Below, one piece after another: positions 2 through 24,779 of a stretch of DNA of 64,000 bases. The notes beneath the pieces were generated by a model that made no database searches, had not been told where the DNA came from, and was given only the letters and a program-made list of their open reading frames with translations. Source of the stretch: Saccharothrix ecbatanensis (GTDB lineage Bacteria; Actinomycetota; Actinomycetes; Mycobacteriales; Pseudonocardiaceae); the NCBI RefSeq assembly GCF_014205015.1, contig NZ_JACHMO010000001.1, forward strand, positions 1,922,001 through 1,986,000, given 5' to 3'. The translations under genes were made by a program, and so were the position numbers. Every line of letters starts with the position of its first letter. Position 1 is the stretch's first letter.

Positions 2-3000
2 GTGGACGACATCGAACTGCTCGACGAGGCTGAGGTGGACGCTCTGCTCGAGCTGGGCAGTGGCGAGCCGGCGGACGTTCTCGCGTCGTCGTTGCTCGAC
101 GCTCTGCGGATTCGCGCCGCCGAGCGGCCCGAGGCGATCGCCATCCGTGCCGCCGGGATCACAGTGACCTACGCACGCCTCGTGCGGCTCGTGAACGGGG
201 TCGCCGTCCACCTCACGTCCCGTGGCGTGCACCACGGCGACGTCGTCGCGGTGGGCATCGGCCGCTGCGCGCTGCTGCCGGTCGTTGCGCTCGGCGTGAT
301 GGCGGCCGGGGCGACGTACCTGCCCATCGATCCGCTCCTGCCTGCCGAGCGCATCGACTTCATGCTCCACGACGCGTCGGCCACCGCTCTGGTGCGCGGT
401 GGTGAGGGCGCTGGGCTCGCTGTGCCCGATGCGGTCCTGGCGGTCGATCTCGCCTCGATTGACGCAATGGAGGAGGCCGACGAGCCGCCGGCGGCCGCAG
501 CCACGACGGACGACCGCGTACCCGCATACCTCATCTACACCTCCGGGTCCACGGGCCTGCCCAAAGGGGTCGCGGTCGGGCGTGGTGGCCTGGCCAACCT
601 GGCGGACTGGCAGTGCCGGACTCTCGCCGTCGACGCGAGCGCGGTTGTGCTGCAGTACGCCTCGCCGGGGTTCGACGCCAGTGTCTGGGAAATGGCCATG
701 GCGTTCGGTTCTGGTGCGACACTGCACGTCCCGGACCGGGCTGCCGTCGCAGGCAGCGCTCTGGCAGCGGAGATCGTCGCTTCCGGCGCGACCCACGTGA
801 CCCTCCCTCCATCGGTGCTCGCGACCCTCGCGCCCGACCAGGTTCCCGGCCTGCGGCAGGTGATCGCGGCCGGCGAGTCCTGCCCAGGACCGCTGGCGCA
901 GACTTGGGCGGCCCGCACCTCGTTCCACAACGCCTACGGCCCCACCGAGACGACGGTGTGCGCGACCGCCCACCGATGCGACCCGGACGAGGGCGTCTGG
1001 CCCCCGATCGGGCGGCCGTTGCAGAACCTGTCGGTCCGCGTGGTCTCCGAAGGGCTGCGTCTCGCTCCCCGCGGCGTGGTCGGCGAACTTGCCGTCGGCG
1101 GACCCGCCGTGGCCTTCGGATACCTGAACCGTCCCGGACTCACCGCCTCCCGGTTCGTCGAGGACCCGTGGCGGGCAGGGGGACGGCTGTACCTCACCGG
1201 CGACCGCGTCCGATGGCGCGCCGACGGCGGTCTCGAGTTCCACGGACGGCACGACGACCAGGTCAAGATCAGGGGGCAGCGCGTCGAACTCGGGGAGATC
1301 GATGCCGTTCTCGCCGCGCACCCCGCCGTCGGCCACGCGGTGACCGGCACTACCGGCGCCGGCATCGGCATCCGGCTGGTCGCCCACGTCACCGGTGCCG
1401 GACTCGATCCCGGCGAACTGAAGGCGTGGGCGGCGAACCGGCTGCCGGCCCACATGGTGCCCGCGACGATCGAGGTCGTCGACGCGTTCCCGCTGACCAG
1501 CAGCGGCAAGGTCGATCGCCGCGCACTCGCCGCAGCCGACCTCGGGCCGACCGCCCTCGATCCGCCTGCCACCGAGGTCGAGGAGCGCCTGGTCGCGCTG
1601 CTCGCGGAGGAGCTCGGGCTCGACCGGGTCGGCGTGCACGACGACTTCTTCCTGCTCGGGGGTCACTCGCTGCTCGCAGCGCGGCTGGCCTTCCGGATCC
1701 GCGAGGAGTTCGGCACCGAGGTTCCGCTCGCCGACGTCCTCGCCCGTCCCACCGCGGCCGGCCTCGCCCGCTCGCTCGACTCTCCAGCGGCTCGGACGCC
1801 CGGCCCGTGGCCCCGCGCCCACCCTGCGCCCCTCAACGAAGGGGAGCCCTTTCCCCTCACCGACGTGCAGCAGGCTTACCTGCTCGGACGCCGGAAGGAC
1901 TTCACTCTCGGCGGCGTCTCCGCACACGGCTACTTCGAGATCGAGGGACCCGATCTCGACCCCGATCGCCTCAACGCAGCCTGGAACGCGGTGGTCCGGA
2001 AGCACTCGATGCTCCGCTGCGTCATCGTCGGCGACCAGCAGCGGATCCTGACGGAGGTGGACGATTACCGCATCGAGGTCCACGACCTCCGCGACGGCTC
2101 GTCTGCGGCGGTCGAGGCTCGTCTGGCCGCTCTGCGCGCCGAGATGTCCCACCAGGTGCTGCCTGCGGACCTGTGGCCGTTGTTCGACATCCGGCTGACC
2201 AGGGTGCCGGGCGGTCGCAGCCGGCTGCATCTGAGCGTGGACGGTCTCGTCGCCGACGGGACCGGTATGCGAAAGATCCTCACCGAGTGGCACGACGCCT
2301 ACCAGGGCCGCGACCTGGCTCCGGCCGAGGAGGTGACGTTCCGCGACTACGTGCTGGCCGAGCGGGCGCTGGAGGCCACCGAGCTGTACGAACGGTCGCA
2401 CTCGTACTGGCAGGAGCGTCTCGACACGCTGCCCGCCGGTCCCGTACTGCCCTCGCACCCGGCCTCCGGCGATGACGGGGCGCGTGGCCGTTCGCCGCAT
2501 TTCGACCGGCTCCACCACCACCTGCCCTCGGCGACCTGGCAGGCACTGCTGGAGGCCGCACGCCGCTCGGGGCTGACCCCCTCGACCGTCGCCCTGACCG
2601 CGTACGCCACCACGCTCGCGGCTTGGTCGAGTTCGCGGCGCTTCACACTCACCCTGACGATGTTCAACCGGCTGCCGCTGCATCCTCGGGTCGACCACAT
2701 CGTCGGCGACTTCACCACGGTGACGCTCATCGAGGTCGACCTGCGCGCATCCCGCTCCTTCCTGGAGGCCGCGCACGAGGTGCAGCGTCAACTCTGGTCG
2801 GACCTGGACCACCGCTACTACAGCGGCATTCGTGTCAAGCGAGACCTCGCCCGCCGCGCAGACGCCGTCTCTCACGGCGGCGACATGCCGGTCGTGTTCA
2901 CCAGCGCGCTGGACGACGCGGGAGGCGGATGGGGCTTCGAGGGTTTCGGCGAGCTGGTCAACGCGACGAACCAGACCCCGCAGGTGTCGCTCGATCACGT

Positions 3001-5074
3001 GGTCGTCGAGCGCGATGGCGGCCTCGACGTGGTGTGGAACGTCGTGCGCGCCGAGTTCCCGGACGGGGTGCCCGACGCCATGTTCGTGGACTACCGGGCG
3101 ACGCTCGAACGGTTGGCGCACGACGGATCGGCCTGGGCGGAGGTCCGGCGCGACCATCGCCCGCCCGAGCAGATCCTGGAGCACCGCGAGGCGAACGAGA
3201 CGGCAGCGCCGCAGCGGCTGCCCCTGCTCCACGAACCGTTCTTCGACATGGCCGCCCGGCAGCCCGACGCCATCGCGGTGCGGACCCCTCACCGCGGCGT
3301 CACCTACCGCGAGCTCGAGCGTGACGTGCTGCGGATCGCCACCCGGCTGGCCGAGTTGGAGCTGCCCCCGTCGTCGCTCGTGGCGGTCAGCCTGCCCAAG
3401 GGCGTGGCCCAGGTCACGGCGGTGCTCGGGGTGCTGCGTGCGGGGCTCGCCTACGTTCCGGTCAGCCCGTCGCTGCCCCGTCAGCGCCAGGAGACCCTGA
3501 TCCAGCAGGCCCGCCCCGGCGCTGTGCTGTGCCTGGCCGGACACGGGGCCGTGGCCGGACCACCAGCCGGATCGGTACCGGTCATCGAAGTCGACCGTGT
3601 TCCCGACCAGACCGCGAAGCCCCCCGAGATCGCGACCGCGGAAGGGGATTTGGCTTACGTCATCTACACCTCGGGTTCCACCGGGGCGCCGAAAGGCGTC
3701 ATGATCGATCACGGTGGCGCGATGAACACGATCATCGACATCAACCGGCGCTACCGGATCACGGGTGCCGACTCGGTGCTCGGCGTCTCCAGCCTCAGCT
3801 TCGACCTGTCGGTGTACGACGTCTTCGGCGTCCTTGCCGTCGGCGGGACGCTCGTCCTCCCGGATCCCCGCCACGAGACGGATCCCGCCCACTGGCGGCA
3901 GCTGATCAGTGAGCAGAAGGTGACCTTGTGGAACTCCGTCCCGGCGCTGATGCGACTGCTGTTGCAGTGGGACGAGTTCGAGGAGGTCGGGGCGCTCACA
4001 TCACTGACCACGGTCATGCTCAGCGGTGACTGGATCCCGGTCGACCTGCCCGGCCTGATCCGCGCGCGCTGCCCGGGGGCCGAGGTCATCAGCATGGGCG
4101 GGGCCACCGAGGCGTCGATCTGGTCGGTCTTCCACCGCGTGGGCGCACAGCTGCCCGACTGGTCGAGCGTCCCCTACGGCCGGCCTCTCGCCGGCCAGGA
4201 GATGTACGTCCTCGACGAGTCGATGACTCCGCGGCCTACGTGGGTGCCAGGGGATCTCTACATCGGAGGGCGCGGCGTCGCGCTCGGCTATCTGCACGAC
4301 GCGGAGCTCACCGACGCCAAGTTCGTGCGGCATCCGAGCTGGGGCACGCGGCTGTACCGCACGGGTGACAGGGCTCGTTGGCGACCGGGCGGGCTCCTGG
4401 AGTTCCTCGGCCGCGACGACCACCAGGTCAAGATCAACGGCAACCGCATCGAGCTGGGGGAGATCGAGGCGGCAATCGCCGTGCACCCGGCGGTCGAGGC
4501 CGCGGTGGTGTCCGCGACATCGGCCGGGCGTGACCGTGTCCTCGTGGCTCACGTTGTGCCCGTGCGTGAGGAAGGGCCGCAGGCCGACCTGTCGACGGTT
4601 CCGCCGTTCGACACCAACGGGCTGCGCCAGCATCTCCGGCAGACCCTGCCGGCCCCGATGATCCCGTCGACGATCGTGGCGATCTCCCGGCTGCCGCTGA
4701 CCACGAACGGCAAGATCGACCGGGGCCGGCTGACCCGGGACGCCGCCGCAGCTGTCGTCCAGGGCAAGGAACCGCTCCCGAGCACCGAGCCGACGCTGGA
4801 CGGCCCCCTGGAGCGGGAGCTGGCGGAGATCTGGTCGACGGTCCTGGAGTGCGCTGTGGACAGCAGCCTCGCGCACTTCTTCGCCCTCGGGGGCGACTCG
4901 CTCCTGGCGGTACGCATCCTCACGCTCGTCAACGAGAGCCACGGCACGTCCATCACATTGAGCGACCTGTTCGACGCGCCCACCATCGGCCAGTTCGCAT
5001 CCCAGATCCAGGCCTCTCGGCAGGACACGCGGTCGCAACAGGCTCCGACGGCGTGGGTCGAGGAGGAACTGTGA
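2..5074 (+). CDS. Nonribosomal peptide synthetase A-T-Cy-A-T (5' partial)
   Basis: This synthetase activates two amino acids and heterocyclises the second. The order is adenylation A1 (about residues 25-520), carrier T1 (LGGHSL, phosphopantetheine Ser556), cyclisation domain Cy (about 610-1050), A2 (about 1070-1560) and T2 (LGGDSL, Ser1633). The Cy call rests on the start FPLTDVQQAYLLGR and on D747-x4-D752 in place of HHxxxDG. Reading the ten A-domain pocket positions against GrsA, A1 gives DAWTIAAVCK, a Phe-type code, and A2 gives DLYNMSMIWK, very close to the Cys code DLYNLSLIWK. I infer an aromatic residue followed by a Cys-derived thiazoline. The GTG at 2 is only the first possible start: residues 3-20 look like the linker that normally follows a condensation domain, so the real gene probably begins left of the window. 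The stop overlaps the next start (GTGA). Confidence 0.93.
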   Translation: MDDIELLDEAEVDALLELGSGEPADVLASSLLDALRIRAAERPEAIAIRAAGITVTYARLVRLVNGVAVHLTSRGVHHGDVVAVGIGRCALLPVVALGVMAAGATYLPIDPLLPAERIDFMLHDASATALVRGGEGAGLAVPDAVLAVDLASIDAMEEADEPPAAAATTDDRVPAYLIYTSGSTGLPKGVAVGRGGLANLADWQCRTLAVDASAVVLQYASPGFDASVWEMAMAFGSGATLHVPDRAAVAGSALAAEIVASGATHVTLPPSVLATLAPDQVPGLRQVIAAGESCPGPLAQTWAARTSFHNAYGPTETTVCATAHRCDPDEGVWPPIGRPLQNLSVRVVSEGLRLAPRGVVGELAVGGPAVAFGYLNRPGLTASRFVEDPWRAGGRLYLTGDRVRWRADGGLEFHGRHDDQVKIRGQRVELGEIDAVLAAHPAVGHAVTGTTGAGIGIRLVAHVTGAGLDPGELKAWAANRLPAHMVPATIEVVDAFPLTSSGKVDRRALAAADLGPTALDPPATEVEERLVALLAEELGLDRVGVHDDFFLLGGHSLLAARLAFRIREEFGTEVPLADVLARPTAAGLARSLDSPAARTPGPWPRAHPAPLNEGEPFPLTDVQQAYLLGRRKDFTLGGVSAHGYFEIEGPDLDPDRLNAAWNAVVRKHSMLRCVIVGDQQRILTEVDDYRIEVHDLRDGSSAAVEARLAALRAEMSHQVLPADLWPLFDIRLTRVPGGRSRLHLSVDGLVADGTGMRKILTEWHDAYQGRDLAPAEEVTFRDYVLAERALEATELYERSHSYWQERLDTLPAGPVLPSHPASGDDGARGRSPHFDRLHHHLPSATWQALLEAARRSGLTPSTVALTAYATTLAAWSSSRRFTLTLTMFNRLPLHPRVDHIVGDFTTVTLIEVDLRASRSFLEAAHEVQRQLWSDLDHRYYSGIRVKRDLARRADAVSHGGDMPVVFTSALDDAGGGWGFEGFGELVNATNQTPQVSLDHVVVERDGGLDVVWNVVRAEFPDGVPDAMFVDYRATLERLAHDGSAWAEVRRDHRPPEQILEHREANETAAPQRLPLLHEPFFDMAARQPDAIAVRTPHRGVTYRELERDVLRIATRLAELELPPSSLVAVSLPKGVAQVTAVLGVLRAGLAYVPVSPSLPRQRQETLIQQARPGAVLCLAGHGAVAGPPAGSVPVIEVDRVPDQTAKPPEIATAEGDLAYVIYTSGSTGAPKGVMIDHGGAMNTIIDINRRYRITGADSVLGVSSLSFDLSVYDVFGVLAVGGTLVLPDPRHETDPAHWRQLISEQKVTLWNSVPALMRLLLQWDEFEEVGALTSLTTVMLSGDWIPVDLPGLIRARCPGAEVISMGGATEASIWSVFHRVGAQLPDWSSVPYGRPLAGQEMYVLDESMTPRPTWVPGDLYIGGRGVALGYLHDAELTDAKFVRHPSWGTRLYRTGDRARWRPGGLLEFLGRDDHQVKINGNRIELGEIEAAIAVHPAVEAAVVSATSAGRDRVLVAHVVPVREEGPQADLSTVPPFDTNGLRQHLRQTLPAPMIPSTIVAISRLPLTTNGKIDRGRLTRDAAAAVVQGKEPLPSTEPTLDGPLERELAEIWSTVLECAVDSSLAHFFALGGDSLLAVRILTLVNESHGTSITLSDLFDAPTIGQFASQIQASRQDTRSQQAPTAWVEEEL

Positions 5075-8052
5075 ACATCCCCGAGCTGCTCGCCCGGCTC
5101 GACGAGCGGGGAATCCAGATCGACCGGCGCGAGGACCGGCTGCTGGTCCGATCACTGCACGGCGCCATCGACGACGAGGTGCGGCAGCTGCTGCGCGACC
5201 ACAAGGCCGCGCTGCTCGCCGAAATCGACCGGGCCGGCGCCGACGCACCCGCGTCCTCCGGCCAGCAACAGCTTTGGCTCATCGATCAGGTCGAGGGCGG
5301 CGGGTGCGCCTACAACGCGACCGCCGTCCTACGGGTACCCGGCCCGGTCGACGATGCGGCGCTCGACGCGGCGTTCACCGGTCTGGTGTACCGAAACGAG
5401 GTCTTCCGGACCGGTCTCGTCGTGCGGAACGGCGAACTGCGCCAGCACGTGCGCCCGCCTGCTCCGGTGACGGTGGATCACGTCGACCTCGGCGACCCGC
5501 CGGCGGACACGGCCGACGCCCGGATCCGCGAGATCGCCGACGCCTCCGCCGTGAGCCGGTTCGACCTGGCCAACGATGTGCTCGTGCGCGCGACGCGGCT
5601 CCGGATGGGCGACGGCGACAGCGTGCTCGTCATCACTATGCACCACGTCGCGGGCGACGGGCTGTCGATGGGTCTGCTCCACGGCGAGCTCGCCGAGCTC
5701 TACGCCGCCGCCGCGTCGGGCCGGGAGCCGGTACTGCCCCTGCAGCTGGGGCAGTACCGCGACTACGCCCATCACCAGCGGCAGTCGGCGGGCGAGCGCC
5801 GCAAGCGGCCCGGCGAAGATGAGCAGGCCGACCGGTTCTGGGCTCGCTACCTCGACGGGGCGCCCTCGACCGTGCTGCCGCTGGACCGGCCTCGTCCCGC
5901 GAGGCGCACCTTCGCCGGCGACTGCGTGCGGTTCCGGCTCGACGCCGGTCTGGTCGCCCGGTTGCGCGAGATGGCCGCAGGCCACGAGACGACGCTGTTC
6001 GTGGTGCTGCTCGCCGTGCTCGGCTCCGTGCTCGGCCGGCACGGCGGTCAGGAGGATGTCGTGGTCGCGACCCCCGTCGTCGATCGTCCCGAGCGGCGGT
6101 TCGAGGGAATGATCGGCTACTTCCTCAACACCGTCGTCATCCGTTGCGACCTCTCGGGCGGCGGTGGATTCGGGACGCTCGTCGATCGGGTCCGCGACAG
6201 CACGCTTGACGCCCTCGGGTACGCGGACACGCCGTTCGAACAGGTGGTCCGCGCTGTCGGTGTCCAGCGCAGCGGCACGAGCAACCCGGTCTACCAGGTC
6301 ATGTTCGCACTGCAGACTGGCCGGCGCAGCCGCCCGCGCCTGGCGGGGAACGAGGTCGAGGAGATTCCCTACGACCCGCCGACGGCCAAGCACGACCTCA
6401 CGATCATGCTCGACGAGGACGAGGCCGGACTGCTCGGGCGACTGGAGTACAGCACCGCGGTCCTCGACCGAGAGAGCGCGTGCCTGCTCGCCGAGCACCT
6501 GGTGGCCCTGGCCGCCGCCGTCGCGGCCGATCCGAGCCGGCCGGTGGCAGCGATCCCACTCGCCACCGACGCGGAACGGGCGTGGATCGCCGAGCGCGAG
6601 GGCGCACTGCGCCTCCGCATTGTCGACGGTGAGGGGTCCCGCGTCCCGCCAGGGGTGATCGGCCGGCTCGTCCTGGACGACGAGGTCTCCCCTGAGCGGC
6701 AGCTCGCCCGCCGGGCCCGGTGGCGGCCCCGCGGCGGTATCGAGGTGCTCGACGACGCCCCTGCACAGCCAGGCCAGGTCGGATTCGAGGCCGCAGGCCC
6801 GTCGGCCCACGGGCTGGCGACGCCGTCCGCGTCGGCGCTGGTGGCTGCGGTCTGGGCCGAAGTCCTCGGCCGGCACCCGGCGTCCGACGACGACTTCTTC
6901 GCACTCGGCGGCACGTCGATGGCCCTGATGGAGGTCCATTGGCAGCTGCGCAGCCGAGCTGGCGTCGAGGTGCCGATCGCCGAACTGCTGGACGACCCCA
7001 GGGTCGGCAGCATGGCCAGGCTCGTGGCGCAACACCAGGAACGGGCCGAGCACGAGGGACCGGCAACCCGATGGAGGCGCGCGGAGCTGCCGCTGCGTGG
7101 ACCGGGCCACCTGTGGAACGTCGCCGCGATCTCCACCACCCGGATGTGGGCGGCAGGTGTTCGTGAGATACCTGGTAGCGCAGGGGAGACGCGGTCGGTC
7201 GTGCTGCGCTGGGACGGCGACGGCTGGCACGAGATGCCCCATCCCGAACTCGAGAAGGTGTTCGGTGTCGCGGTCGCCCCATCCGGCGCCGTGTGGCTCT
7301 CGGGCCGGCGGGGACTACTGCGCTTCGACGGCGCGCGGTTCCACCGGGTAGCGGGGGGCGCACCGCGCTACGACTGCGCGTCGGTCACGAGGATCGGCGA
7401 CGAGCTCTGGACCGTCGTGCGCCCCGACGACACTCCAGGGGCGCCGACCTACGTCGCGGCCGGCGGCGAGGACGGCGGGTGGCGGCGACTGCCCCTCCCC
7501 CTCCCGCAGCGGGCGACGACTCGCTTCGGGTGCCTCGACGGAACCTCCGGTCGCGACGTCTGGGCGGCGGTCGTCGTCGACGTCGACGACCGCCGGGAAT
7601 CGTGGCTCACGCACTGGAACGGCGAGGGCTGGCACGAGGTCGTCCCGCCGCCGCTCGGGCGTGCCGGGGTCGAGATCATGCGGGTCGTCGCCCGCGGCTC
7701 GGAGGACGTCTGGGTGCTGGGCGCGCGGCTCACCGATGAGGGGCGCGCCAGCGTCATGGTGCGCTGGGACGGGCGGGTGTGGACCGAGGCCACCCTTCCG
7801 GTCGGTCACCGCGGGCGCATCACGAGCCTCCTGGCAGCGGGCGACGGCACGCTGTGGGCGGTCGGCGGCGGTCAAGGCGACGCGGGTGTCATGTTGCGCA
7901 GCGACGACGGCGGCCGGCACTGGGAAAGCGATGCCGCCCCGTCCTCGGTCCTGCTCGGCGACATCGTCCTTCTCCCAGACGCCGATGGGTTCCTCGTGGG
8001 GGGCGCCGCCGACGACGGGATGGCTCTGTTCCGGTGGGAGCGCATTCGATGA
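5071..8052 (+). CDS. NRPS: docking region-C-(remnant A)-T fused to beta-propeller
   Basis: 993 aa from the GTG at 5071, which overlaps the upstream TGA. Residues 1-50 resemble a TubC-type N-terminal docking domain. A condensation domain follows (about 65-490) with an intact HHVAGDG motif (H191, H192, D196, G197). Residues about 513-565 are only a scrap of an adenylation domain: a VPPGVIGRLVLDD stretch like core A6 and an ARWRPRGGIEVL stretch like A7/A8, with the nucleotide-binding and specificity parts gone. A carrier domain follows (LGGTSM, Ser616). Residues about 670-993 are blades with repeated RWDGDGWHE, HWNGEGWHE and RWDGRVWTE motifs and DVWA/TLWA strands, i.e. a beta-propeller of five to six blades. 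No propeller fused to an NRPS carrier is familiar to me. The module cannot load its own amino acid, so T616 must be charged in trans or used as an acceptor or scaffold site. Confidence 0.9.
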   Translation: MNIPELLARLDERGIQIDRREDRLLVRSLHGAIDDEVRQLLRDHKAALLAEIDRAGADAPASSGQQQLWLIDQVEGGGCAYNATAVLRVPGPVDDAALDAAFTGLVYRNEVFRTGLVVRNGELRQHVRPPAPVTVDHVDLGDPPADTADARIREIADASAVSRFDLANDVLVRATRLRMGDGDSVLVITMHHVAGDGLSMGLLHGELAELYAAAASGREPVLPLQLGQYRDYAHHQRQSAGERRKRPGEDEQADRFWARYLDGAPSTVLPLDRPRPARRTFAGDCVRFRLDAGLVARLREMAAGHETTLFVVLLAVLGSVLGRHGGQEDVVVATPVVDRPERRFEGMIGYFLNTVVIRCDLSGGGGFGTLVDRVRDSTLDALGYADTPFEQVVRAVGVQRSGTSNPVYQVMFALQTGRRSRPRLAGNEVEEIPYDPPTAKHDLTIMLDEDEAGLLGRLEYSTAVLDRESACLLAEHLVALAAAVAADPSRPVAAIPLATDAERAWIAEREGALRLRIVDGEGSRVPPGVIGRLVLDDEVSPERQLARRARWRPRGGIEVLDDAPAQPGQVGFEAAGPSAHGLATPSASALVAAVWAEVLGRHPASDDDFFALGGTSMALMEVHWQLRSRAGVEVPIAELLDDPRVGSMARLVAQHQERAEHEGPATRWRRAELPLRGPGHLWNVAAISTTRMWAAGVREIPGSAGETRSVVLRWDGDGWHEMPHPELEKVFGVAVAPSGAVWLSGRRGLLRFDGARFHRVAGGAPRYDCASVTRIGDELWTVVRPDDTPGAPTYVAAGGEDGGWRRLPLPLPQRATTRFGCLDGTSGRDVWAAVVVDVDDRRESWLTHWNGEGWHEVVPPPLGRAGVEIMRVVARGSEDVWVLGARLTDEGRASVMVRWDGRVWTEATLPVGHRGRITSLLAAGDGTLWAVGGGQGDAGVMLRSDDGGRHWESDAAPSSVLLGDIVLLPDADGFLVGGAADDGMALFRWERIR

Positions 8053-9152
8053 CGGCGACTGTGGACACACCGTCCGGGAAACTCGGCCTCACTTCGGCGC
8101 AAAGCGCGGCGCTCAAGGCCGACACCGCGGACGGCTCCGACCGCGTCGCGCTGGTCGCGGCACATACCGGCGAGCTGGATCTCAAGGCGCTGACGCAAGC
8201 CCTCATGGAGCTGCGGAGACGACACGATGTTCTGCGCACGACCATCCGCCACGGCGACGACGGGCCCGTGGGAGTGATCGGCACTCGGACCGTCGTGCCG
8301 GTGGAACTGGCCGCCGAGCCTCTGCCCGCGGACGGGTACCCACCCAGGGGTTTCGACCTGTGCGGCGGACCGCTCGTCCGCGTCGTGCTCTTCTCCGGCA
8401 CCGGCGGCCGGACGTTGCTGGAGTTCCAGGCCCACCCGGTCGTGCTGGACGAGGAGGCCATCCGCGCCGCGGTCCATGAGCTGGGCCTGCTCTACCAGTA
8501 CTTCGGGGGCGACGGCCCAATTCCGCCAATGGCTCGGATCGACTACCAGGAGCATGTGGCCGCACTGCGCTCTACTGTCGGCCGTGTGCCCCACCGGCTG
8601 CCGGTGGTGTCCCACGAGATCGGCTCCGACACCGCAGATCGCCTGCGCCTCATCGCGTCGTCGCGTGGGCTGCCGGTGGCCCTGCTCGTGCTTGCCGCCT
8701 GGATCTCCGCGGACACGGCGGCATTCGAAGCGGCCGCCGCGCGAGTCGCGGTATCCCTGGGGGATCCATCCGGAAGGCCGCCCCTGGGACCGGCCTGCGA
8801 CCGTGTCCTGCTCCGGGCGGACCCTGGTTCGGCTGGCGACATCGCTGCCCTCGCGGAGCAGTTGCGCACAGCGATGGCCGATGTCGAGCCGGATGACGGC
8901 GGCACCCCGGTCACCTTCACATTCCACGACGACCGCGCCGGCGCGGACGCCGGCCCGTTCGACGTCGTCGAGATGGGCAGCGTGCTCGCACCCTCCGAGA
9001 TCTCACTCGCGGGCCACGGCACGTCGGCGGCGGGTTGGCTCCTGCGTCTCACGCACCGTGCGGACATCGCGGGCGCCCGGGCCGTCCTCGCGCGCACGGC
9101 TGCGCTGCTGGAGAACATGGGCGCCGCGCTGATTGACGAGGAGGTGCTTTGA
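8049..9152 (+). CDS. Stand-alone degenerate condensation-domain-like protein
   Basis: 367 aa; the ATG overlaps the upstream TGA, so it is translationally coupled to the NRPS genes. The fold assignment rests on RRRHDVLRTTIRHGDDGP near residue 60 (the R(H)xxLR region of condensation domains), the PRGFDLCGGPLVRVVLF strand pair, and a position equivalent to HHxxxDG that reads HPVVLDE. The catalytic second His and the Gly are therefore missing. It is also shorter than the usual 430-450 aa. I infer a non-catalytic C-like partner or scaffold for the adjacent synthetases, or a decaying domain kept in frame. No signal peptide or membrane segment is visible. Catalytic acyl transfer seems unlikely but cannot be excluded. 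Confidence 0.65.
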   Translation: MTATVDTPSGKLGLTSAQSAALKADTADGSDRVALVAAHTGELDLKALTQALMELRRRHDVLRTTIRHGDDGPVGVIGTRTVVPVELAAEPLPADGYPPRGFDLCGGPLVRVVLFSGTGGRTLLEFQAHPVVLDEEAIRAAVHELGLLYQYFGGDGPIPPMARIDYQEHVAALRSTVGRVPHRLPVVSHEIGSDTADRLRLIASSRGLPVALLVLAAWISADTAAFEAAAARVAVSLGDPSGRPPLGPACDRVLLRADPGSAGDIAALAEQLRTAMADVEPDDGGTPVTFTFHDDRAGADAGPFDVVEMGSVLAPSEISLAGHGTSAAGWLLRLTHRADIAGARAVLARTAALLENMGAALIDEEVL

Positions 9153-11098
9153 GGGCCGCCGAAGCGCTCTTTCCTGGATCCTCCACGACGAAGGAAGGCA
9201 GTTCCATCAGCGACCGAACGTTCATGTACGGCAAGCCGTCCTCTTCCTCGGACCTGCTGATGTTCTGCCTGCCGTACGCGGGCAGGGGCGCCAGCATCTA
9301 CCGGCAGTGGTGGGAGAGCCCTGGCCGGGGGATCGAGTTCGTACCGGTCCAGTTGCCGGGGCGGGAGAACCGCGTCCGGGAGAGCCACATCCACGACCTG
9401 CGCGAGCTGGTGGAGTCTCTCGCCGCCGACATCGCGCCGCACACGGGGCGGCCTTACGCGCTGTTCGGCTACTGCATGGGCGCGACCATCGCGTTCGAGC
9501 TGGCGCACCGGTTGCCCGAGCTCACCGGACGTCGGCCCCGGCACCTGGTCGTCGCCGGGTGTACCCCGCCGCACCTGCAGCGGGCGGTGTCGTCGATGCC
9601 GCGGCGCACCGACGACGAGATGCTGACCGAGCTGCGCCGGCTGGGAGGCGTACCGCAGGCGATGCTGGACGACGAGCGGCTTCTCGCGTTCGCCCTGCCC
9701 GTGTTCCGGGCCGACTGGAGTGCCCTCGACGGGTACGGCTACCGGCCCGCCCCGGCGCTGGAGGTCCCGATCACGGTCCTCGGCTCCACGGACGATCCCG
9801 ATGTCGAACCGGACAAGCTGCGGCAATGGGAGCGTCACACCAACGCCGAGACCAGGGTCTACGTGTTGCCGGGCGACCACTTCTTCGTGGAGCGATTTCG
9901 TGAGGAAGTCCGAGATCTGCTGGTCAGTGAGCTGGCCGTGAAACCGGCGGACGCGGAGGAACCGCCTGTGGCCCCTGAGACGGCACCGGAGCTGGTTCCT
10001 GGACCCGGTGGCATCGCCACGGCTCTCGAGGTGAGCGGGCGGCGCGCCCTCGGTGACGTCGACACGAACGCGTGGCGAGCAGCACTGCACGACCTCGACG
10101 CCGCCGCCCTCACGGCGATGACACGCGCCGTCACCAACGAGCGGCTTCAGGTGGCTCCACGCCATCGGTGGCTGATCGACCGCTGGATCGCCGCTCTGCT
10201 GGCTGAGGGCTGCGTCGTGCGACGGGATGGCGCGCTCGTCGCGACGAACGAGGCACGGCCGGAGTCGGCTGACGAGGATCGGGTGTCCGGTGCCTGCGCA
10301 ACGCTCGGCTACGGCGCCGAACTGCGCGACTTCTTCCTTCGGTGCAACAGGAATCTGTCCCTGCTGCTTCGCGACAGGCTTACCGTGCAGGAGCTGTGGT
10401 TCCAGGGCGGCGGCTTCGCGGTTGCCGAGTCGACCTACCGGGACAACCCCATGGCCCGTTACCTGAACGCGGCTCTGGCCGAGGCTGTCGTGCATCGCGT
10501 GCGGAACGGGGCGGGAACCGCACCGGTGCGCGTCCTGGAGCTCGGGGCCGGCATCGGCGCCACGACGAGTGCCCTCCTGCCGATGCTGGCCGCCACGGGT
10601 GTCGAACTGCGTTACGTGTTCAGCGACATCTCACCGGCGTTCCTCAAGGCGGCTCGCGAGCGGTTCGCCGACTACCCGTTCGTCGCGTACGAACTGATCG
10701 ACATCAACGACGAGAGCGGGCTGTCCATGCCGCCCGCCGATGTCGTGCTGTCGGCGAATGTGCTTCACAACGCCCACGACGTGGAGGCGACGCTGGCCCG
10801 ACTGCGGCGGATGACCGCGGATGACGGGATGTTCGCGTTCGTCGAATCCAGCCGGGAGCACTACCAGTTGATGGCCTCGATGCTCTTCATGCTGTCGGGT
10901 CTGGACGGGCATCCCCGGCCTGGCTCGGCCGACTTCCGGGCCGCGGAGAACCGCGTCTGTCTCACCCGCACGGAGTGGCACGAGCAGCTGCGCCGGGCAG
11001 GTTTCGCGTTGGAAGCCACCGTGCCGGACGGGGAGCTGGACCCGGCCGCGGTTCTCGAGCAGTACCTCTACGTGACCACACCTGCGGGGTCGGCGTGA
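9149..11098 (+). CDS. Type II thioesterase fused to SAM methyltransferase
   Basis: 649 aa from a TTG at 9149 overlapping the upstream TGA and preceded by GAGGAGG; an in-frame ATG at 9224 is the alternative but lacks a close ribosome site. Residues about 35-265 are an alpha/beta-hydrolase of the type II (editing) thioesterase family, with FCLPYAGRGAS, a nucleophile elbow GYCMG and GDHFFVER for the catalytic His. The nucleophile is Cys109 rather than the usual Ser. Residues about 310-645 form a class I methyltransferase resembling the C-methyltransferase domains of polyketide and NRPS lines (GGGFAVAESTYRDNPMARYL, SAM loop LELGAGIGATT near 463-473, ADVVLSANVLHNAHD). Type II thioesterases clear misprimed carriers; the methyltransferase may act on a carrier-bound intermediate. 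The fusion and the Cys nucleophile are both unusual. Confidence 0.88.
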   Translation: MRAAEALFPGSSTTKEGSSISDRTFMYGKPSSSSDLLMFCLPYAGRGASIYRQWWESPGRGIEFVPVQLPGRENRVRESHIHDLRELVESLAADIAPHTGRPYALFGYCMGATIAFELAHRLPELTGRRPRHLVVAGCTPPHLQRAVSSMPRRTDDEMLTELRRLGGVPQAMLDDERLLAFALPVFRADWSALDGYGYRPAPALEVPITVLGSTDDPDVEPDKLRQWERHTNAETRVYVLPGDHFFVERFREEVRDLLVSELAVKPADAEEPPVAPETAPELVPGPGGIATALEVSGRRALGDVDTNAWRAALHDLDAAALTAMTRAVTNERLQVAPRHRWLIDRWIAALLAEGCVVRRDGALVATNEARPESADEDRVSGACATLGYGAELRDFFLRCNRNLSLLLRDRLTVQELWFQGGGFAVAESTYRDNPMARYLNAALAEAVVHRVRNGAGTAPVRVLELGAGIGATTSALLPMLAATGVELRYVFSDISPAFLKAARERFADYPFVAYELIDINDESGLSMPPADVVLSANVLHNAHDVEATLARLRRMTADDGMFAFVESSREHYQLMASMLFMLSGLDGHPRPGSADFRAAENRVCLTRTEWHEQLRRAGFALEATVPDGELDPAAVLEQYLYVTTPAGSA

Positions 11099-12550: not shown

Positions 12551-13765
12551 ATGTCTACTCAGTCCGAAGTTCCGCGGTTCCCGTTCCCGCCGTCTCCGGT
12601 GCCCTACGAGCCGGGGCCGGAAATACGAGAACTCACGGCGAAGTGCCCGGTCAACAAGGTTCTCCTGCCCGACGATTCCACGGCCTGGCTGGTCACCGGT
12701 TTCCACGAGACGCGGGAAGTGATGATCGATCCGCGCTACTCCCGCGCGCTCGTCTTCGCCCCTGGCCGCCACGTGTACGGCACGGAGCCGACGCTCGCCG
12801 ACAGCCTGATCGGCATGGACCCGCCAGAGCACAGTCGACTGCGCAAGCTGGTGTCCGGCGCGTTCACCCAGAAACGCATCCGAGTGCTCCGCGCGCAAGT
12901 CGCCGAGATCGTCGACGACCTGATCGACGGGATGCTCGCCGGGCCCCGGCCGGTGGACCTCGTCCACTCGTTCTCGCTGATGGTTCCGGCAAGCGTGACA
13001 TGCGCGCTGCTCGGAGTGTCCGCAGTGGATGTCAGCCGCTTCCACGCGTTGTCGAACGAGATATTCGGCGACTGGAGCCGCTCGCCGGACGACATCGCCA
13101 GGGCGTACACGGCCATGGCCGTCTTCATGGCGCAGTTGATCGCCCAGAAACGGCGGGCTCCCGAGGACGATCTGATCAGCATGCTGGTCGACCCCGATTC
13201 GGCCGACCGGCTCTCGGACGTCGAACTCATCAAGTTCTGCGTCGGGCTGCTCGCCGCCGGCCACGAGACCACCAGCAACTCGATCAGCATGTCGTTCCTG
13301 GCACTCTGCCGGCATCCCGACGAGCTCGCCCGGCTGCGCGCCGATCCCGACCTCATCCCAGGGGCCGTGGAGGAACTGCTGCGGTACGTGATCATCAGTG
13401 GTAGCGGGTTCGTCCCACTGGCGCGGATCACCCGGGAAGAGGTGTGCCTCGGCGGAGTCACGATTCCAGCCGGGGAGATCGTCCTGCCGACGTTCGACGT
13501 CGCCAACCGGGATCGCACGGTGTTCGACGATCCTGACCGGCTCGATGTCGGACGAGCACCGAAGGTTCACCTGGGCTTCGGTGCGGGCGCCCATCACTGC
13601 CTCGGCGCCCAACTTGCCCGGCTGCAACTGCAGGAGGCGTTCCGCGGGTTGCTGACACGGCTGCCCGGCCTCCGGGTGACCGTGCCGATGTCCGCGCTTG
13701 AAATCCGTTCGGGGCACCGCATCGCCAACGTGCGTGAGCTCCCTGTCACCTGGGACGACGTGTGA
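12551..13765 (+). CDS. Cytochrome P450
   Basis: 404 aa soluble bacterial P450. The I-helix oxygen-binding motif AGHETT lies at residues 236-241, the ExxR motif appears as EELLR near 278, and the heme loop LGFGAGAHHCLG places the thiolate ligand at Cys350. The gene overlaps the open frame leading into the free carrier protein, an arrangement common where a P450 hydroxylates an amino acid held on a carrier. Redox partners (ferredoxin and reductase) are not encoded nearby. Substrate is inferred, not shown: beta-hydroxylation of a carrier-bound residue or late oxidation of the peptide are both possible. The ATG has only a distant GGAG, and a 73-base gap separates it from the exporter gene. Confidence 0.95.
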   Translation: MSTQSEVPRFPFPPSPVPYEPGPEIRELTAKCPVNKVLLPDDSTAWLVTGFHETREVMIDPRYSRALVFAPGRHVYGTEPTLADSLIGMDPPEHSRLRKLVSGAFTQKRIRVLRAQVAEIVDDLIDGMLAGPRPVDLVHSFSLMVPASVTCALLGVSAVDVSRFHALSNEIFGDWSRSPDDIARAYTAMAVFMAQLIAQKRRAPEDDLISMLVDPDSADRLSDVELIKFCVGLLAAGHETTSNSISMSFLALCRHPDELARLRADPDLIPGAVEELLRYVIISGSGFVPLARITREEVCLGGVTIPAGEIVLPTFDVANRDRTVFDDPDRLDVGRAPKVHLGFGAGAHHCLGAQLARLQLQEAFRGLLTRLPGLRVTVPMSALEIRSGHRIANVRELPVTWDDV

Positions 13766-14189: not shown

Positions 14190-14218
14190 TTGACTCCGTC
14201 GCCGAATAGTTCGATCCT
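14190..14218 (+). promoter_or_regulatory. Weak promoter candidate for tailoring block
   Basis: TTGACT at 14190-14195 could serve as -35. The -10 region about 17 bases downstream (GATCCT) fits poorly. It sits immediately downstream of the 11-bp inverted repeat and 70 bases before the chosen ATG of the next gene, so position and context support it more than the hexamers do. Confidence 0.3.
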
Positions 14219-14286
14219 TGGTGGACGCTGCAAGAGAAGTGCTGCCGCCGCCTTCCTTTTCCGCACAGGTGATCTGGAGACAACAG

Positions 14287-14943
14287 ATGCGAGTCGGCAT
14301 GGCTGACGAACTGCTCGCACGCAATTCCTGGTCGAGCATGGATCATCTGAACGCGATCTACTGGTCGTTGTCGTCCGTGCTGCTTTACAACAGGCCGGGC
14401 GCGGTGCTCGAAGTCGGCTGCAACGCCGGGCACACCAGTGTGTGGCTCCAGCGGGTCATCCAGGACTTCGCGCCCGAGCGCGAGCTGCACCTGTTCGACT
14501 CCTTCGCGGGTCTGCCGACTCCTGGACAGCACGACGTGCTGCTGGGCGACGGCGACCTGGTCGTCACGGAGGAGCAGGTGAAGGAGAACTTCGCCGACTG
14601 GGATCTGCCGACCCCGGCCATCCACGCGGGCTGGTTCGTTGACACACTGCCGAGCTACTGTCCGCGTCAGGTCGCTTTCGCCTACCTCGACGGGGACTAC
14701 TACGAATCGATCCTCACGAGTCTGGAGTACGTGTATCCGCGACTGGTGCCCGGCGGCGTGATCCTGATCGACGACTACTGCGACGCAGAGCAGAATCCGC
14801 GCGCCTGGGACGGTTTCCCGGGCGTCAAGATGGCCTGCGACGACTACTTCCGTGGCCGTCCGAACCCCGTTGAGGTGCTGGCCGGCAGCGCCAGGCTCGC
14901 GGTGGGGGCGATTCGCAAGCCGCTTGACGGCGCGGGTGTCTGA
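14287..14943 (+). CDS. TylF/MycF-type O-methyltransferase (first copy)
   Basis: 218 aa from the ATG at 14287, which has GGAGA six bases upstream; the frame is open to a TTG at 14218 but without a ribosome site. The SAM-binding strand is AVLEVGCNAGHTSVWL. The motifs HLFDSFAGLP, AFAYLDGDYYESILTSLEYVYPRL and GGVILIDDY match the TylF (macrocin O-methyltransferase) family, whose acidic residues bind Mg2+ next to a sugar hydroxyl. The family methylates deoxysugars on macrolides and other glycosides. Together with the glycosyltransferase two genes downstream this argues for a methylated sugar in the product. The upstream N-terminal helices are short compared with TylF. Confidence 0.87.
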   Translation: MRVGMADELLARNSWSSMDHLNAIYWSLSSVLLYNRPGAVLEVGCNAGHTSVWLQRVIQDFAPERELHLFDSFAGLPTPGQHDVLLGDGDLVVTEEQVKENFADWDLPTPAIHAGWFVDTLPSYCPRQVAFAYLDGDYYESILTSLEYVYPRLVPGGVILIDDYCDAEQNPRAWDGFPGVKMACDDYFRGRPNPVEVLAGSARLAVGAIRKPLDGAGV

Positions 14944-15029
14944 CCGGCTGGTGTGTTCGCGGACTTCTTCGTCCGGCACGTGACCGGATCGCCGGATGAG
15001 CTGTCCGCTTCGACTGAAGAGAGTCCACA

Positions 15030-15914
15030 GTGGAGCGTCTCGATCTGTTCGCATTGGAAATCAACGCCACCTGGCACTGCAATCTCGCGTGCGTTGCGTG
15101 CTCACATGCCAGTCCGGTCGCCACGCCCGCCTTCGCCGACCCGGAGGTGGTCCGGCGGGACCTGGCCAACCTGGCGCAGGCGGTGACCGTCCAGGAGTTG
15201 CGGGTCGTGGGCGGCGAGCCGCTGCTGCACCCCCGGATCAACGAGATATTCCAGGCGGTGCGCGATTCCGGGATCGGTGGGCGGCTCTGCCTGACCACCA
15301 ACGGGACTCGGCTGCACCGGATCGACCTGAAGTGGTTGGACGTGGTCGACCTGGTCTACATCTCCCGGTACCCCGGAGTGAACATCCGGCAGCACGCGCT
15401 CGACGAGCTGCGCACCCACGCTGAGCGGAACGGCACCGAGGTGGTGATCAAGGACTACCGCACGTTCCGGCAGGTGCGCTCCGCGCTGCCTCTCGACGCG
15501 GAGCAGACCCAGATGGTGTTCGACACCTGTCAGGTAGCGCACAAGTGGTCGTGCCACACCGTGCACGAGGGGAACGTGTACCTGTGCCCGGTGATACCCA
15601 ACGGGGACGATGCGATGACCGAACGATGCGGAATCGAGCCGTTGGACGGTCTGCGGAACCGACTTCAGCTGTTCTTGGAACGCGAGACCCCGTTGAAGGC
15701 CTGTAGCGGTTGCCTCGGCACGGTCGGCAACGAGATTCCACACGGGCAGGCGAATGCCAAGACGTGGCATGAGCTCACCGGTGCCGGCTCCATCGATGTG
15801 AAGCGGCTGGAACTCGTGCGCCGCAACGACTGGATCGACCACGGCTGCTCGGCCAACACCACACTGGTTCAGCGGCCGGACGAGCACGACACTCGCGAAG
15901 GCGGTATCGCATGA
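15030..15914 (+). CDS. Radical SAM enzyme with extra C-terminal cysteines
   Basis: 294 aa from GTG 15030. The 4Fe-4S/SAM motif CxxxCxxC is at Cys17, Cys21 and Cys24 (WHCNLACVACSH). VVGGEPLLHPRI is the GGE SAM-binding motif and CLTTNGTRL follows as expected. The C-terminal third holds further cysteines (CQVAHKWSCHT, YLCPVIPNG, CGI, CSGCLG), which suggests an auxiliary cluster of SPASM/twitch type. The coding end overlaps the glycosyltransferase start (ATGA), so the two are made together. Such enzymes near glycosyltransferases often carry out sugar epimerisation, dehydration or decarboxylation; which applies here is not determined by the sequence. Confidence 0.9.
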   Translation: MERLDLFALEINATWHCNLACVACSHASPVATPAFADPEVVRRDLANLAQAVTVQELRVVGGEPLLHPRINEIFQAVRDSGIGGRLCLTTNGTRLHRIDLKWLDVVDLVYISRYPGVNIRQHALDELRTHAERNGTEVVIKDYRTFRQVRSALPLDAEQTQMVFDTCQVAHKWSCHTVHEGNVYLCPVIPNGDDAMTERCGIEPLDGLRNRLQLFLERETPLKACSGCLGTVGNEIPHGQANAKTWHELTGAGSIDVKRLELVRRNDWIDHGCSANTTLVQRPDEHDTREGGIA

Positions 15915-16798
15915 CCGAAGTCAGCGTGATGATGACTTTGTTCGGCGAAGGACGCGACGGCGACACGGTGAGGACCGTCGTCGACTCCTGGCTCGATCAG
16001 GACATCTCGTGCGAAGTCGTCATCGCAACGGACGGGGACACGCGTCTTGGCCCGGAGTTCGCCGGGCGGGATGACGATCGGGTCAGGGTGGTGGCTTCAT
16101 CCACCGAGACACCGTCGCGAGGTGTGCTGGGCAACGTCGCGGCCGAAGCCGCCCAGGGCGACTGGCTGTACATCAGCGACATGGACGTCGTCCCGCTGAG
16201 CCGCAGCTATCTGCGCGACGCCAAGGCCGCCGCGGAGGCGGTGGGTGGGTTCCTGGCCCAGCCGAGGATGCTCCGCCTGGTCGGCATGCCCCCAGCCGGG
16301 CCACCGTGGCGGTGGGCGTTGCCGGACAGTTCGAACACCGGGTGTTTCGTGCGAAGGGGTGAGCTGGGCGAGCTCGTGAACCTGCCGGGCGAAACGGTGT
16401 TCGTGTGGTCGGACTTCGACGGACAGCTCTGGGTCGATCCACCCGCGCAGCTCGCTGCGAGCCGTGCCGACGAGTTCTCCCGCCGACCGGCGCTCCACTG
16501 GGGGGCCGTCCTCGTCGACCGGCAGAGGTTCGCGAGTGTCGGCGGTTACTGCGAACAGTACGTCGGCTGGGGATGTGAGGACGAAGACCTGCTGCACAAG
16601 CTGACCGCCACAGCACCCGCGGTGAAGGCGTGGGCGCAGCGCGGGAACCTGCTTTGCCTGCACTTCGAGCACGGGCCGGCACGTGACACGCCCGAGTACG
16701 AGACCAACCGCGTCCGACTGGAAGAGCGGCGGAACTCCGGTGCCGAGGCGATGATCGCCGACGACCTTCGTCGGACCAACGCGTCCGAGCTCCGATAG
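15911..16798 (+). CDS. Family 2-like glycosyltransferase (GT-A fold)
   Basis: 295 aa, ATG overlapping the previous stop. The N-terminus EVSVMMTLFGEGRDGDTVRTVVDSWL is a GT-A nucleotide-sugar strand-loop. LYISDMDVVPL supplies the DxD metal site, and GGYCEQYVGWGCEDEDLLHKL resembles the GWGxEDxD acceptor and catalytic region of galactosyltransferase/GalNAc-transferase-like enzymes. No membrane segment is visible, so it should act in the cytoplasm on a soluble or carrier-bound acceptor. With the two TylF-type methyltransferases and the carbamoyltransferase it points to a decorated sugar on the product. Sugar donor and acceptor are unknown. Confidence 0.88.
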   Translation: MTEVSVMMTLFGEGRDGDTVRTVVDSWLDQDISCEVVIATDGDTRLGPEFAGRDDDRVRVVASSTETPSRGVLGNVAAEAAQGDWLYISDMDVVPLSRSYLRDAKAAAEAVGGFLAQPRMLRLVGMPPAGPPWRWALPDSSNTGCFVRRGELGELVNLPGETVFVWSDFDGQLWVDPPAQLAASRADEFSRRPALHWGAVLVDRQRFASVGGYCEQYVGWGCEDEDLLHKLTATAPAVKAWAQRGNLLCLHFEHGPARDTPEYETNRVRLEERRNSGAEAMIADDLRRTNASELR

Positions 16799-16846
16799 AT
16801 GGCGCACATCGGGCACCACCTCCCGCTCAGCTCACCGGCGAGCGGT

Positions 16847-16873
16847 GGCCGGCACCTCGCCGAGGTGCCGGCC
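16847..16873. terminator. Bidirectional hairpin terminator
   Basis: GGCCGGCACCTCG pairs with CGAGGTGCCGGCC around a very short centre. It lies between the ends of the glycosyltransferase gene (+) and the regulator gene (-), so it can serve both. There is no U-run, as is usual in high-GC actinobacteria. Confidence 0.75.
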
Positions 16874-16915
16874 GGGCTGAACGGGCAGCGCGTATTCGGT
16901 GCTCGGCCCCGGTTC

Positions 16916-17926
16916 TCAGCCGGACTCGGCGTTCCTGCTGTCCAGTTCATCGGCGAAGCCGGTCCAGACCGCCGCGTACTCGCGGGCGATCCGGGCGAGC
17001 CGATTGGTGATGTGTGGCGGAAGACCGTCGATGATCTGGCGGTACTGGCTCACAGTGATCGCCCGAAGCGCGAGCCAGCGCAACATGCCCTGTCCCCGCT
17101 CCGAGTAGCGGATGGACGGATCGCGCCGCAGACCGTCGACCATGGACTGGAGGTCCAGTCCAGGACTGCGCATCTCGGGAAGTGCCGTCACCGTCTGGGA
17201 GTGGTCGTGCGAGGAGCGCACGTCACCCGTCGCCGGGTGCTCGTCCCGCCCGTCCGTGCTCATCTTCATGCGGACGTCGCGAGCCGTGCTCACCGAGATG
17301 CCGGCTCGTGCCGCGACTTCGCGCAGCGACAACTGGGGCTGGTTGGCGAACAGCTGACCGGCGGTCCTGCGTCCCTCCGCAGTGGACAGGGGTCGTACGC
17401 GACCGTCGCGGCCCAGGCGGTGCCGGGAAGGGGGAGCGCCGGTGCGTTTGCGGATGCCGGAAACCGTGCGAGCGGACAAGCCGGCAATGGCGGCGACGGC
17501 TCGATCAGACAACTCCGGGTACGCGGCGATGATCTGGATCGTGGCCGCCTGCCGGTCGGCGCCTGTCAGTGGCAACCCGTGCGCGGTGTTGGTCTGGACC
17601 GCGAGCAGGAACGCTTCCGCGTCGCTGCCGTGGAAAAACTTCACTTCGATCTCGTCGGCGCCGTTCAGGCGGGCGGCGGTCAGCCGGTGCATGCCGTCGA
17701 TGACACGCATGGTCTCGCGATGAACGAGGATGGGGGGCAGTGGTGACGCGACACCGGCCAGTAGCCTGATGTGGTTCTCGTCAGTGCCGCCCAGTCGTGG
17801 CGAGATACCCGCTTCGATCTCGCTGATCCGCAATCTCGTGGGTGTTTCGTCCACTCTGTTCTGTACAGGTCCAGTCGAGGTGGGCAGTGGCACCGGCTCA
17901 CGCAAGGCCCCGGAAGATTGTGACAT
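16916..17926 (-). CDS. StrR-like pathway-specific activator (ParB-like N-domain)
   Basis: 336 aa, ATG preceded by GGGGGA. The first half is a ParB/Srx-type domain (RLRISEIEAGISPRLGG, PPILVHRETMRVIDGMHRLTAARLNG), followed by helix-turn-helix segments (LSDRAVAAIAGLSARTVSGIRKR and LSLREVAARAGISVSTARDVRM). This arrangement is that of StrR, the streptomycin activator, and its relatives in glycopeptide and aminocoumarin clusters, which bind inverted TCGA-containing sites. The gene is divergent from the condensation enzyme at 18199 and convergent with the core genes. The shared upstream region contains a cluster of TCGAA motifs, a plausible target. I infer that it activates the cluster. Confidence 0.87.
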   Translation of the reverse strand: MSQSSGALREPVPLPTSTGPVQNRVDETPTRLRISEIEAGISPRLGGTDENHIRLLAGVASPLPPILVHRETMRVIDGMHRLTAARLNGADEIEVKFFHGSDAEAFLLAVQTNTAHGLPLTGADRQAATIQIIAAYPELSDRAVAAIAGLSARTVSGIRKRTGAPPSRHRLGRDGRVRPLSTAEGRRTAGQLFANQPQLSLREVAARAGISVSTARDVRMKMSTDGRDEHPATGDVRSSHDHSQTVTALPEMRSPGLDLQSMVDGLRRDPSIRYSERGQGMLRWLALRAITVSQYRQIIDGLPPHITNRLARIAREYAAVWTGFADELDSRNAESG

Positions 17927-18198
17927 CTATATTCCCCCGAACTGTCAATCCGTTAGGCATTCGCTATCGCAACGAATGTACGTGCGACGCCTTCGCGTGC
18001 ACCATCGGCTGAACGGGTGATCGGGCAGGTACTGACCGTGTTCGAATCTGTCGAAGATTCTCTGTTGAAATCGTCGAAACTGTCGAATCCGTGCAAACTC
18101 GCGTCGGGGTCTGGCCCGTGGCGGCGCCGGCTGCGGGCCGGACCCCACTGCCGCAGTGTTTTCAATCGCTCGACGCCCCCTATTCTCCTGGAGTCGGT
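17927..18198. promoter_or_regulatory. Divergent promoter region with TCGAA cluster
   Basis: This AT-richer stretch separates the regulator (-) from the condensation enzyme (+). Within 18041-18087 the motif TCGAA (one copy TTGAA) starts at 18042, 18051, 18065, 18075 and 18083. The first pair forms an inverted repeat TTCGA-N5-TCGAA. The spacing does not match the published StrR consensus (GTTCGAct-N11-agTCGAAc), so binding by the adjacent regulator is an inference from position and half-site similarity. Confidence 0.5.
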
Positions 18199-19998: not shown

Positions 19999-20001
19999 TA
20001 C

Positions 20002-20073
20002 TTGACAACAATCCGAGTGATCGATAACGTTATTTTTGAATCGCCTCGATAAAACGCGAACCGTGATATCGAG
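20002..20073 (+). promoter_or_regulatory. Strong promoter with two palindromes upstream of GH3 gene
   Basis: TTGACA (20002-20007), 17 bases, TAACGT (20025-20030) is near the sigma-70-type consensus. The -10 lies inside ATAACGTTAT (20024-20033), a perfect palindrome with a central CG as in LacI-family operators. Downstream of the likely start site, CTCGATA (20045-20051) and TATCGAG (20067-20073) form a second inverted repeat with a 15-base centre. A repressor on either site would block transcription. The regulators are unknown. Confidence 0.6.
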
Positions 20074-20167
20074 CTTTCCGGTCGCGCCAACTTACCGGAG
20101 ACACCCGAATTTCGTGTTGTCTTCCCAGGTGCGGACGGCCACCCCATGCGACCTACCGGGGGAATCC

Positions 20168-22972: not shown

Positions 22973-22974
22973 CC

Positions 22975-24756: not shown

Positions 24757-24779
24757 TGTCAACGGAGGAGGCGGAGCAG

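Follow-up and report, generated by a model that had tools for sequence, protein, structure and literature searches.

We analysed a 64,000-nucleotide stretch of the Saccharothrix ecbatanensis genome (contig NZ_JACHMO010000001.1, positions 1,922,001 to 1,986,000; hereafter the window), focusing on the gene at 5071..8052, which encodes a nonribosomal peptide synthetase (NRPS) protein whose carrier (T) domain is followed by a seven-bladed beta-propeller (Table 1). The gene is a single uninterrupted frame that opens with GTG at 5071, closes with a stop codon at 8050-8052 and overlaps both of its neighbours (GTGA at 5071, ATGA at 8049). The original prediction, that the propeller is fused to the carrier domain, had allowed for a stop or frameshift between 7000 and 7100 that would separate two genes; no stop codon lies in that interval and the frame is unbroken. 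Because independent sequences carry the same fusion, it is not an assembly error, and a two-gene or frameshift artefact was rejected on both grounds.

Table 1. Features of the propeller-bearing gene and its cluster, in window coordinates
Feature	Position	Strand	Evidence
Upstream NRPS, C-A-T-Cy-A-T, part inside the window (gene start at about window position -1324)	2..5074	+	Pfam, tblastn
Second A domain of upstream NRPS	3245..4294	+	Pfam
AWVEEEL C-terminal tail of upstream NRPS, which probably docks on TubC_N	5051..5071	+	VEEEL shared with L011 and L013
Whole gene, TubC_N - C - ghost A - T - propeller, 993 residues	5071..8052	+	Open frame, Pfam
TubC_N N-terminal docking domain, residues 3-50	5077..5220	+	Pfam PF18563, 31 bits (cut-off 26)
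Condensation (C) domain, residues 59-504	5245..6582	+	Pfam PF00668, 280.7 bits
Adenylation (A) domain ghost, residues 508-566 (59 residues)	6592..6768	+	hhalign against 29 A-domain segments
Carrier (T) domain, residues 591-652	6841..7026	+	Pfam PF00550, 47.9 bits
Seven-bladed beta-propeller, residues 666-990	about 7066..8040	+	AlphaFold2, fold matches
Degenerate stand-alone C protein, tail ALIDEEVL	8049..9152	+	Pfam, 35.6 bits, partial
Thioesterase-methyltransferase (TE-MT) protein, frame open from 9149, exact start uncertain	9224..11098	+	Pfam
P450 of the cluster	12551..13765	+	Shared with L011 and L012; no homolog found in L013/G102

Architecture and distribution of the fusion

The C domain retains an intact HHVAGDG motif at residue 191, as expected of the HHxxxDG motif in a C-A-T module, and the T domain places Ser616, the predicted site of phosphopantetheine attachment, within LGGTS (codon 6916-6918), so that the carrier ahead of the propeller was correctly anticipated. 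Past residue 652 no Pfam family scored above its cut-off, in agreement with the claim that no known NRPS domain follows T. PSII_BNR reached 16.0 bits, and 19.3 bits with the propeller alone, under the gathering cut-off of 27, and membership of the Ycf48 family by sequence was therefore rejected. The W(D/N)GxxW blade motifs on which the propeller had been proposed were found three times (residues 714, 849 and 899) against 0.011 expected, and none of 20,000 composition shuffles contained as many.

AlphaFold2 modelled the last 333 residues (window 7051-8049) with a pLDDT of 89.0 and a pTM of 0.89, giving 28 strands that we read as seven radial, four-stranded blades in a closed ring, in which the N-terminal strand closes the last blade. 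When the full-length protein was modelled, pLDDT was 69.8 overall and the propeller region was among the best-scored parts. On the model of the C-terminal part a non-propeller fold was rejected, and the propeller span originally proposed holds, except that the real extent is slightly wider. The best Foldseek match was Ycf48 (1.8e-8), in a structure bound to the D1 peptide; when fold matches were ranked by Z, virginiamycin B lyases made up the top four entries (27.6-26.9) at 11-14% identity.

Among 8000 candidates, residues 655-993 matched at least 19 proteins. Thirteen of them, P0002-P0014, have C and T domains as well; P0012 stops within the propeller and P0013 is without its N-terminal part. 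The propeller of P0014 as query gave 54 matches, again with 13 carrying C and T domains, two of them new: P0132, from Frankia sp. KB5, and the closely related P0131. The C-T-propeller order that the original prediction suggested looking for thus occurs in at least 15 database proteins besides that of the window (one ending inside the propeller), and three further fused loci came from the genome collection, two in Streptomyces (L011 and L012) and one in Amycolatopsis iheyensis (L013). Among 390 genomes of the same family, scored with up to five candidates per genome, 63 had a match at 1e-10 and two had the fusion by score and open-frame length, namely the S. ecbatanensis genome itself and G102. 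Among 394 genomes of the class, scored in the same way, two had a match at 1e-30 and only the S. ecbatanensis genome had the fusion, as the 551-residue frame of the other contained no C or T match. The fusion is therefore rare among the genomes scanned.

Stand-alone relatives translated from ten loci (L016-L025) are proteins of 336-380 residues, and all ten have N-termini that resemble signal peptides by eye, as anticipated from the association of such propellers with secretion; the fused branch has no signal peptide. Secreted WDGxxW propellers matched the fused-family profile with a best E of 3.9e-34 in the family scan and share the same repeat family. The propeller is thus a member of a family of mostly secreted actinobacterial propellers, from which the fused proteins differ in that the secreted ones bear an apparent signal peptide, show no fusion in the frames read and mostly lack the polar invariants described below. 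A search with residues 480-680 for C-T homologs without the propeller gave at least 129 matches among 8000 candidates; of the best 120, most of those other than 11 fused proteins carry an A domain by Pfam, and one A-less protein among them, P0045, has the order T-C-T.

The claim that the synthetase has lost its own A domain was right in that the 993-residue protein has no AMP-binding Pfam match, but a remnant persists between C and T where a complete C-A-T module would have the whole domain. Compared to 29 A-domain segments, this ghost gave an hhalign probability of 96.0 and an E of 4.5e-9, and 20 column shuffles reached at most 0.7. It matches the stretch around what we take to be motifs A6 and A7, and the remainder of the A domain is absent. 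Profile comparison alone reveals the ghost, as pairwise local alignment to two A domains scored 43 and 47, not above shuffles (best of 500, 64, for the second domain only). The ghost is reduced to 25 residues in P0010, and in the Frankia-type proteins P0131 and P0132, where Pfam found C and T but no A domain, its position is taken by 32 residues that look unrelated by eye; the propeller is retained in all three. Between the two groups of fused proteins the ghost was the least conserved part (mean identity over 55 pairs 0.309, cf. 0.464 for C, 0.509 for T and 0.434 for the propeller), and its dN/dS against L013 was 0.97.

Retention of the propeller and its polar residues

All 16 fused proteins in the alignment retain the propeller, with identity falling to 44%. 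Relative to the two Streptomyces loci its dN/dS was the lowest of the five parts of the protein (0.27 and 0.30, cf. 0.39 and 0.40 for C and 0.58 and 0.52 for T), although these two comparisons are not independent because L011 and L012 are 96% alike by codons. Identities of the C domain and of the propeller co-varied (Spearman 0.83; 55 pairs among 11 proteins). Trees of the two parts, each of 16 rows, gave the same 11/5 split and the same pairs (P0014 with L013, P0131 with P0132 and P0001 with P0002), and disagreed on the placement of P0013 and within the group of 11. Overall, the propeller was inherited together with the C domain.

In an alignment of 13 fused proteins the propeller had 20 invariant polar sites, and ten secreted relatives shared 13% of these versus 52% of 58 other invariant sites. 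When L013, P0131 and P0132 were added to give 16 rows (P0012, L011, L012 and G102 being left out), 17 polar sites were invariant: H680, N683, S709, H724, S744, D768, C769, S771, T781, R784, T817, S844, E868, R871, D900, R916 and D964. The secreted relatives shared them in 20 of 170 cells, or in 10 of 160 once D900, which belongs to the WDG motif, is set aside; these ten rows are partly redundant, with nine pairs more than 70% alike. By the strand list of the model, several polar invariants lie at the start of the innermost strand or in the loop preceding it, and by topology such positions would line the mouth of the central channel. Invariant residues numbered 28 of 108 on the top face, 45 of 163 in the strand core and 5 of 52 in the bottom loops. 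Since actinobacterial relatives keep both the fusion and these unusual polar residues, the propeller is very probably, as judged from sequence comparison, a working part of the synthetase.

The surrounding cluster and its candidate product

The window begins within the cluster; the genome sequence ahead of it encodes a FAAL-ACAD-ACP protein and the first part of the upstream NRPS. We take this NRPS to contain a Cy domain, named from the motif observed, a first A domain with a Phe-like code (DAWTIAAVC, cf. DAWTVAGVC in L013, by our numbering) and a second A domain that is presumably specific for cysteine (DLYNMSMIW, by our placing of the positions and reading of the code). As far as their stretches reach, L011 and L012 encode part of the FAAL-ACAD-ACP protein, the NRPS (82%), the C-T-propeller protein (77-78%), the degenerate C protein (71%), TE-MT (78%) and the P450 (83%). 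L013 and G102 encode the FAAL-ACAD-ACP protein, the NRPS (52%), the C-T-propeller protein (46%), a thioesterase and a stand-alone thioester reductase.

The original prediction suggested that the propeller recruits a trans-acting A domain, the P450 or the degenerate C protein. Of these, the P450 is disfavoured, as the Amycolatopsis locus keeps the fusion and has no P450 homolog in the 39 kb around it (tblastn, 1e-8). The degenerate C protein is weakened as a partner: tblastn found no homolog in the Amycolatopsis locus, where a 209-residue protein without detectable BLAST similarity (best E 0.73; L013:10906-11535) stands in its place. TubC_N domains bind acidic tails, and such tails recur here: VEEEL closes the NRPS of the window and those of L011 and L013, degenerate C proteins terminate in IDEEVL or VDEELL, and the 209-residue protein ends in VEESF. 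All of these are read as docking tails for TubC_N, and the likeness of the degenerate C protein's tail to that of the NRPS suggests that it, too, would dock there.

The thioesterase part of 9224-11098, fused to a methyltransferase, has GYCMG (with Cys), and the Amycolatopsis thioesterase has GHSMG. Further along, at 14218-26672, the window encodes by eye a TylF-type methyltransferase, a radical SAM protein, a glycosyltransferase, a second degenerate C protein, a GH3 protein, a carbamoyltransferase and an SGNH-like protein, which were not seen in the L011 and L012 stretches and perhaps belong to a second pathway. Ricin-type lectin proteins at 27757-37829 (a ThuA/GSDH/CBM6/PKD protein and a GH95 protein) look like carbohydrate degradation, with no relation to the NRPS.

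Thioamycolamide A, one of thioamycolamides A-E from Amycolatopsis sp. 26-4, combines an unsaturated fatty acid with Phe, a D-configured thiazoline and cysteinol and is closed by a thioether; a 2022 review gives its gene cluster as not identified (PMC9810689). The Amycolatopsis locus matches this order domain by domain, including a stand-alone reductase for reductive release, and L013 and G102:C44 (L026/L027) are thus, by sequence, strong candidates for a thioamycolamide cluster in Amycolatopsis. The window cluster has a desaturating acyl starter, a Phe-like A domain, Cy with a Cys A domain and a third extending module, given the codes and Cy naming assumed above, and would by analogy follow the same enoyl-Phe-thiazoline-cysteinol logic. 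The fit is incomplete at the point of release: it has TE-MT and the P450 and no reductase nearby, the nearest of 15 PF07993 matches in the genome lying more than 200 kb away, so that its product should end differently and not be plain thioamycolamide.

On the thioamycolamide order, the third residue must be a cysteine held on the T domain that has no A domain, and we infer by analogy that the upstream Cys A domain charges this T in trans. Lines of the yersiniabactin type need a Cys A domain in another module, and here the upstream NRPS supplies one if its code is read as we assume. In the yersiniabactin synthetase HMWP2/HMWP1 one upstream Cys A domain charges a downstream carrier in trans and the chemistry is likewise that of thiazolines, although HMWP1 is a polyketide synthase-NRPS hybrid with a Cy domain and no propeller is named in the available part of that source (PMC9547227). 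For the related pxb system, mutants led to the same inference of trans charging (PMC9396620).

Possible roles of the propeller

We propose that the protein may be the last module of a short thioamycolamide-type lipopeptide assembly line. The upstream NRPS would build an unsaturated-acyl-Phe(-like)-thiazoline chain and dock through its VEEEL tail on TubC_N, and the C domain would condense this chain with cysteine on T, which the upstream cysteine-specific A domain would load in trans because the module's own A domain has decayed to a ghost. The propeller, in the position of a release domain, would bind the T-tethered acyl-Phe-thiazoline-Cys chain, holding or processing it before release, for instance by thio-Michael closure of the thioether or by fixing the configuration of the thiazoline. 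Anatomy, fold, conservation, ghost and synteny are observed here; product class, trans charging and docking are deduced, and action of the propeller on the chain is a hypothesis. We favour such action on the T-bound chain as a tentative reading. The likely release enzymes differ between lineages (TE-MT in the window, thioesterase and reductase in Amycolatopsis) while the polar residues are constant, as would fit a shared target, for example the chain. Both lineages have in common the T-bound acyl chain, the Cys A domain and a thioesterase. Enzymes built on propellers, CylK in a natural-product pathway (PMC8916777) and virginiamycin B lyase among the top fold matches, are precedents for such action.

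Two of these shared components could also be protein partners. The propeller may be a docking platform that keeps a partner close to the A-less T, either the upstream Cys A domain, for trans charging, or the free thioesterase; we rate this reading only slightly lower. Propellers commonly serve as binding scaffolds, Ycf48 with its D1 peptide heads the Foldseek list, and the module requires an outside loader and an outside releaser, both present in the two lineages examined. However, the tails of the NRPS and of the degenerate C protein look made for TubC_N, the P450 and a detectable degenerate C homolog are missing from the Amycolatopsis locus, and invariant His, Cys, Asp, Glu and Arg at about 44% identity resemble a ligand site more than a co-varying protein interface. 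Trans charging of cysteine also proceeds in yersiniabactin synthesis with no propeller named in the part of the source available (PMC9547227).

That the propeller is itself an enzyme, acting in cis on the carrier-bound chain through the polar channel mouth, seems rather unlikely. Residues proposed for that mouth include His680, Asn683, His724, Asp768, Cys769, Ser771, Arg784, Glu868, Arg871, Arg916 and Asp964, and the step could be thioether macrocycle closure by thio-Michael addition, or epimerisation that sets the thiazoline configuration. No epimerase domain is visible in the assembly line, in contrast to yersiniabactin synthesis, where the A domain embeds one. Virginiamycin B (streptogramin B) lyase, comparable at the level of the propeller fold, acts on a cyclic NRPS peptide. 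CylK and BrtB are propeller enzymes of natural-product biosynthesis; in CylK the active site sits between the propeller's top face and the other domain, but that propeller is fused to a Ca2+-binding domain, not a carrier, and the substrates are alkyl halides (PMC8916777).

A purely structural role, in which the propeller caps the terminal T to stabilise or shield it and replaces the lost bulk of the A domain, with no specific ligand, would suit a propeller placed directly after T beside an eroded A domain, but polar invariants mostly lacking in secreted relatives are unexpected for a mere spacer, and we regard this explanation as improbable. A chance fusion with a secreted propeller gene that was then tolerated, as the secreted appearance of all ten translated relatives might suggest, is very improbable given retention in 16 aligned fused proteins to 44% identity and a dN/dS of 0.27-0.30 in near pairs.

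Several results weigh against action of the propeller on the chain or against the scheme around it. The propeller did not have the lowest dN/dS against L013 (0.57, cf. 0.63 for C and 0.47 for T) or between L011 and L013 (0.62, cf. 0.60 and 0.51), and across lineages its identity was slightly under that of C and T. Clustering of the polar residues was argued from strand topology only, and invariants were not enriched on the top face over the strand core, being richer there than in the bottom loops only. Virginiamycin B lyase was tied in Z with WD40 proteins, homology identified no catalytic residue in the propeller, and the thioamycolamide A thioether forms without an enzyme in a biomimetic synthesis (PMC9810689). 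In near pairs the ghost had a dN/dS of 0.38-0.42, about as C, and thus still looks constrained there. Resemblance between the A-less T and the Cys-loaded T, considered as a sign of a shared loader, was not seen (0.29 identity).

The original prediction knew of no described example, and in open-licence PMC literature we likewise found no described C-T-propeller protein; the nearest known architecture is that of ACSF4-U26/AASDH, an NRPS-like protein of animals that bears a PQQ-propeller motif and differs in the type of that motif and in being without the usual condensation domain (PMC4882622, PMC10531068). With the fusion, a further type of domain is found behind the terminal carrier of an NRPS, and the family shows the A domain being lost in steps beside a propeller that stays. 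We presume the domain order of ACSF4-U26 to be A-T-propeller. The loci described here also give a concrete candidate cluster for the thioamycolamides and, if the chain is what the propeller acts on, a new kind of in-cis domain for tailoring or cyclisation.

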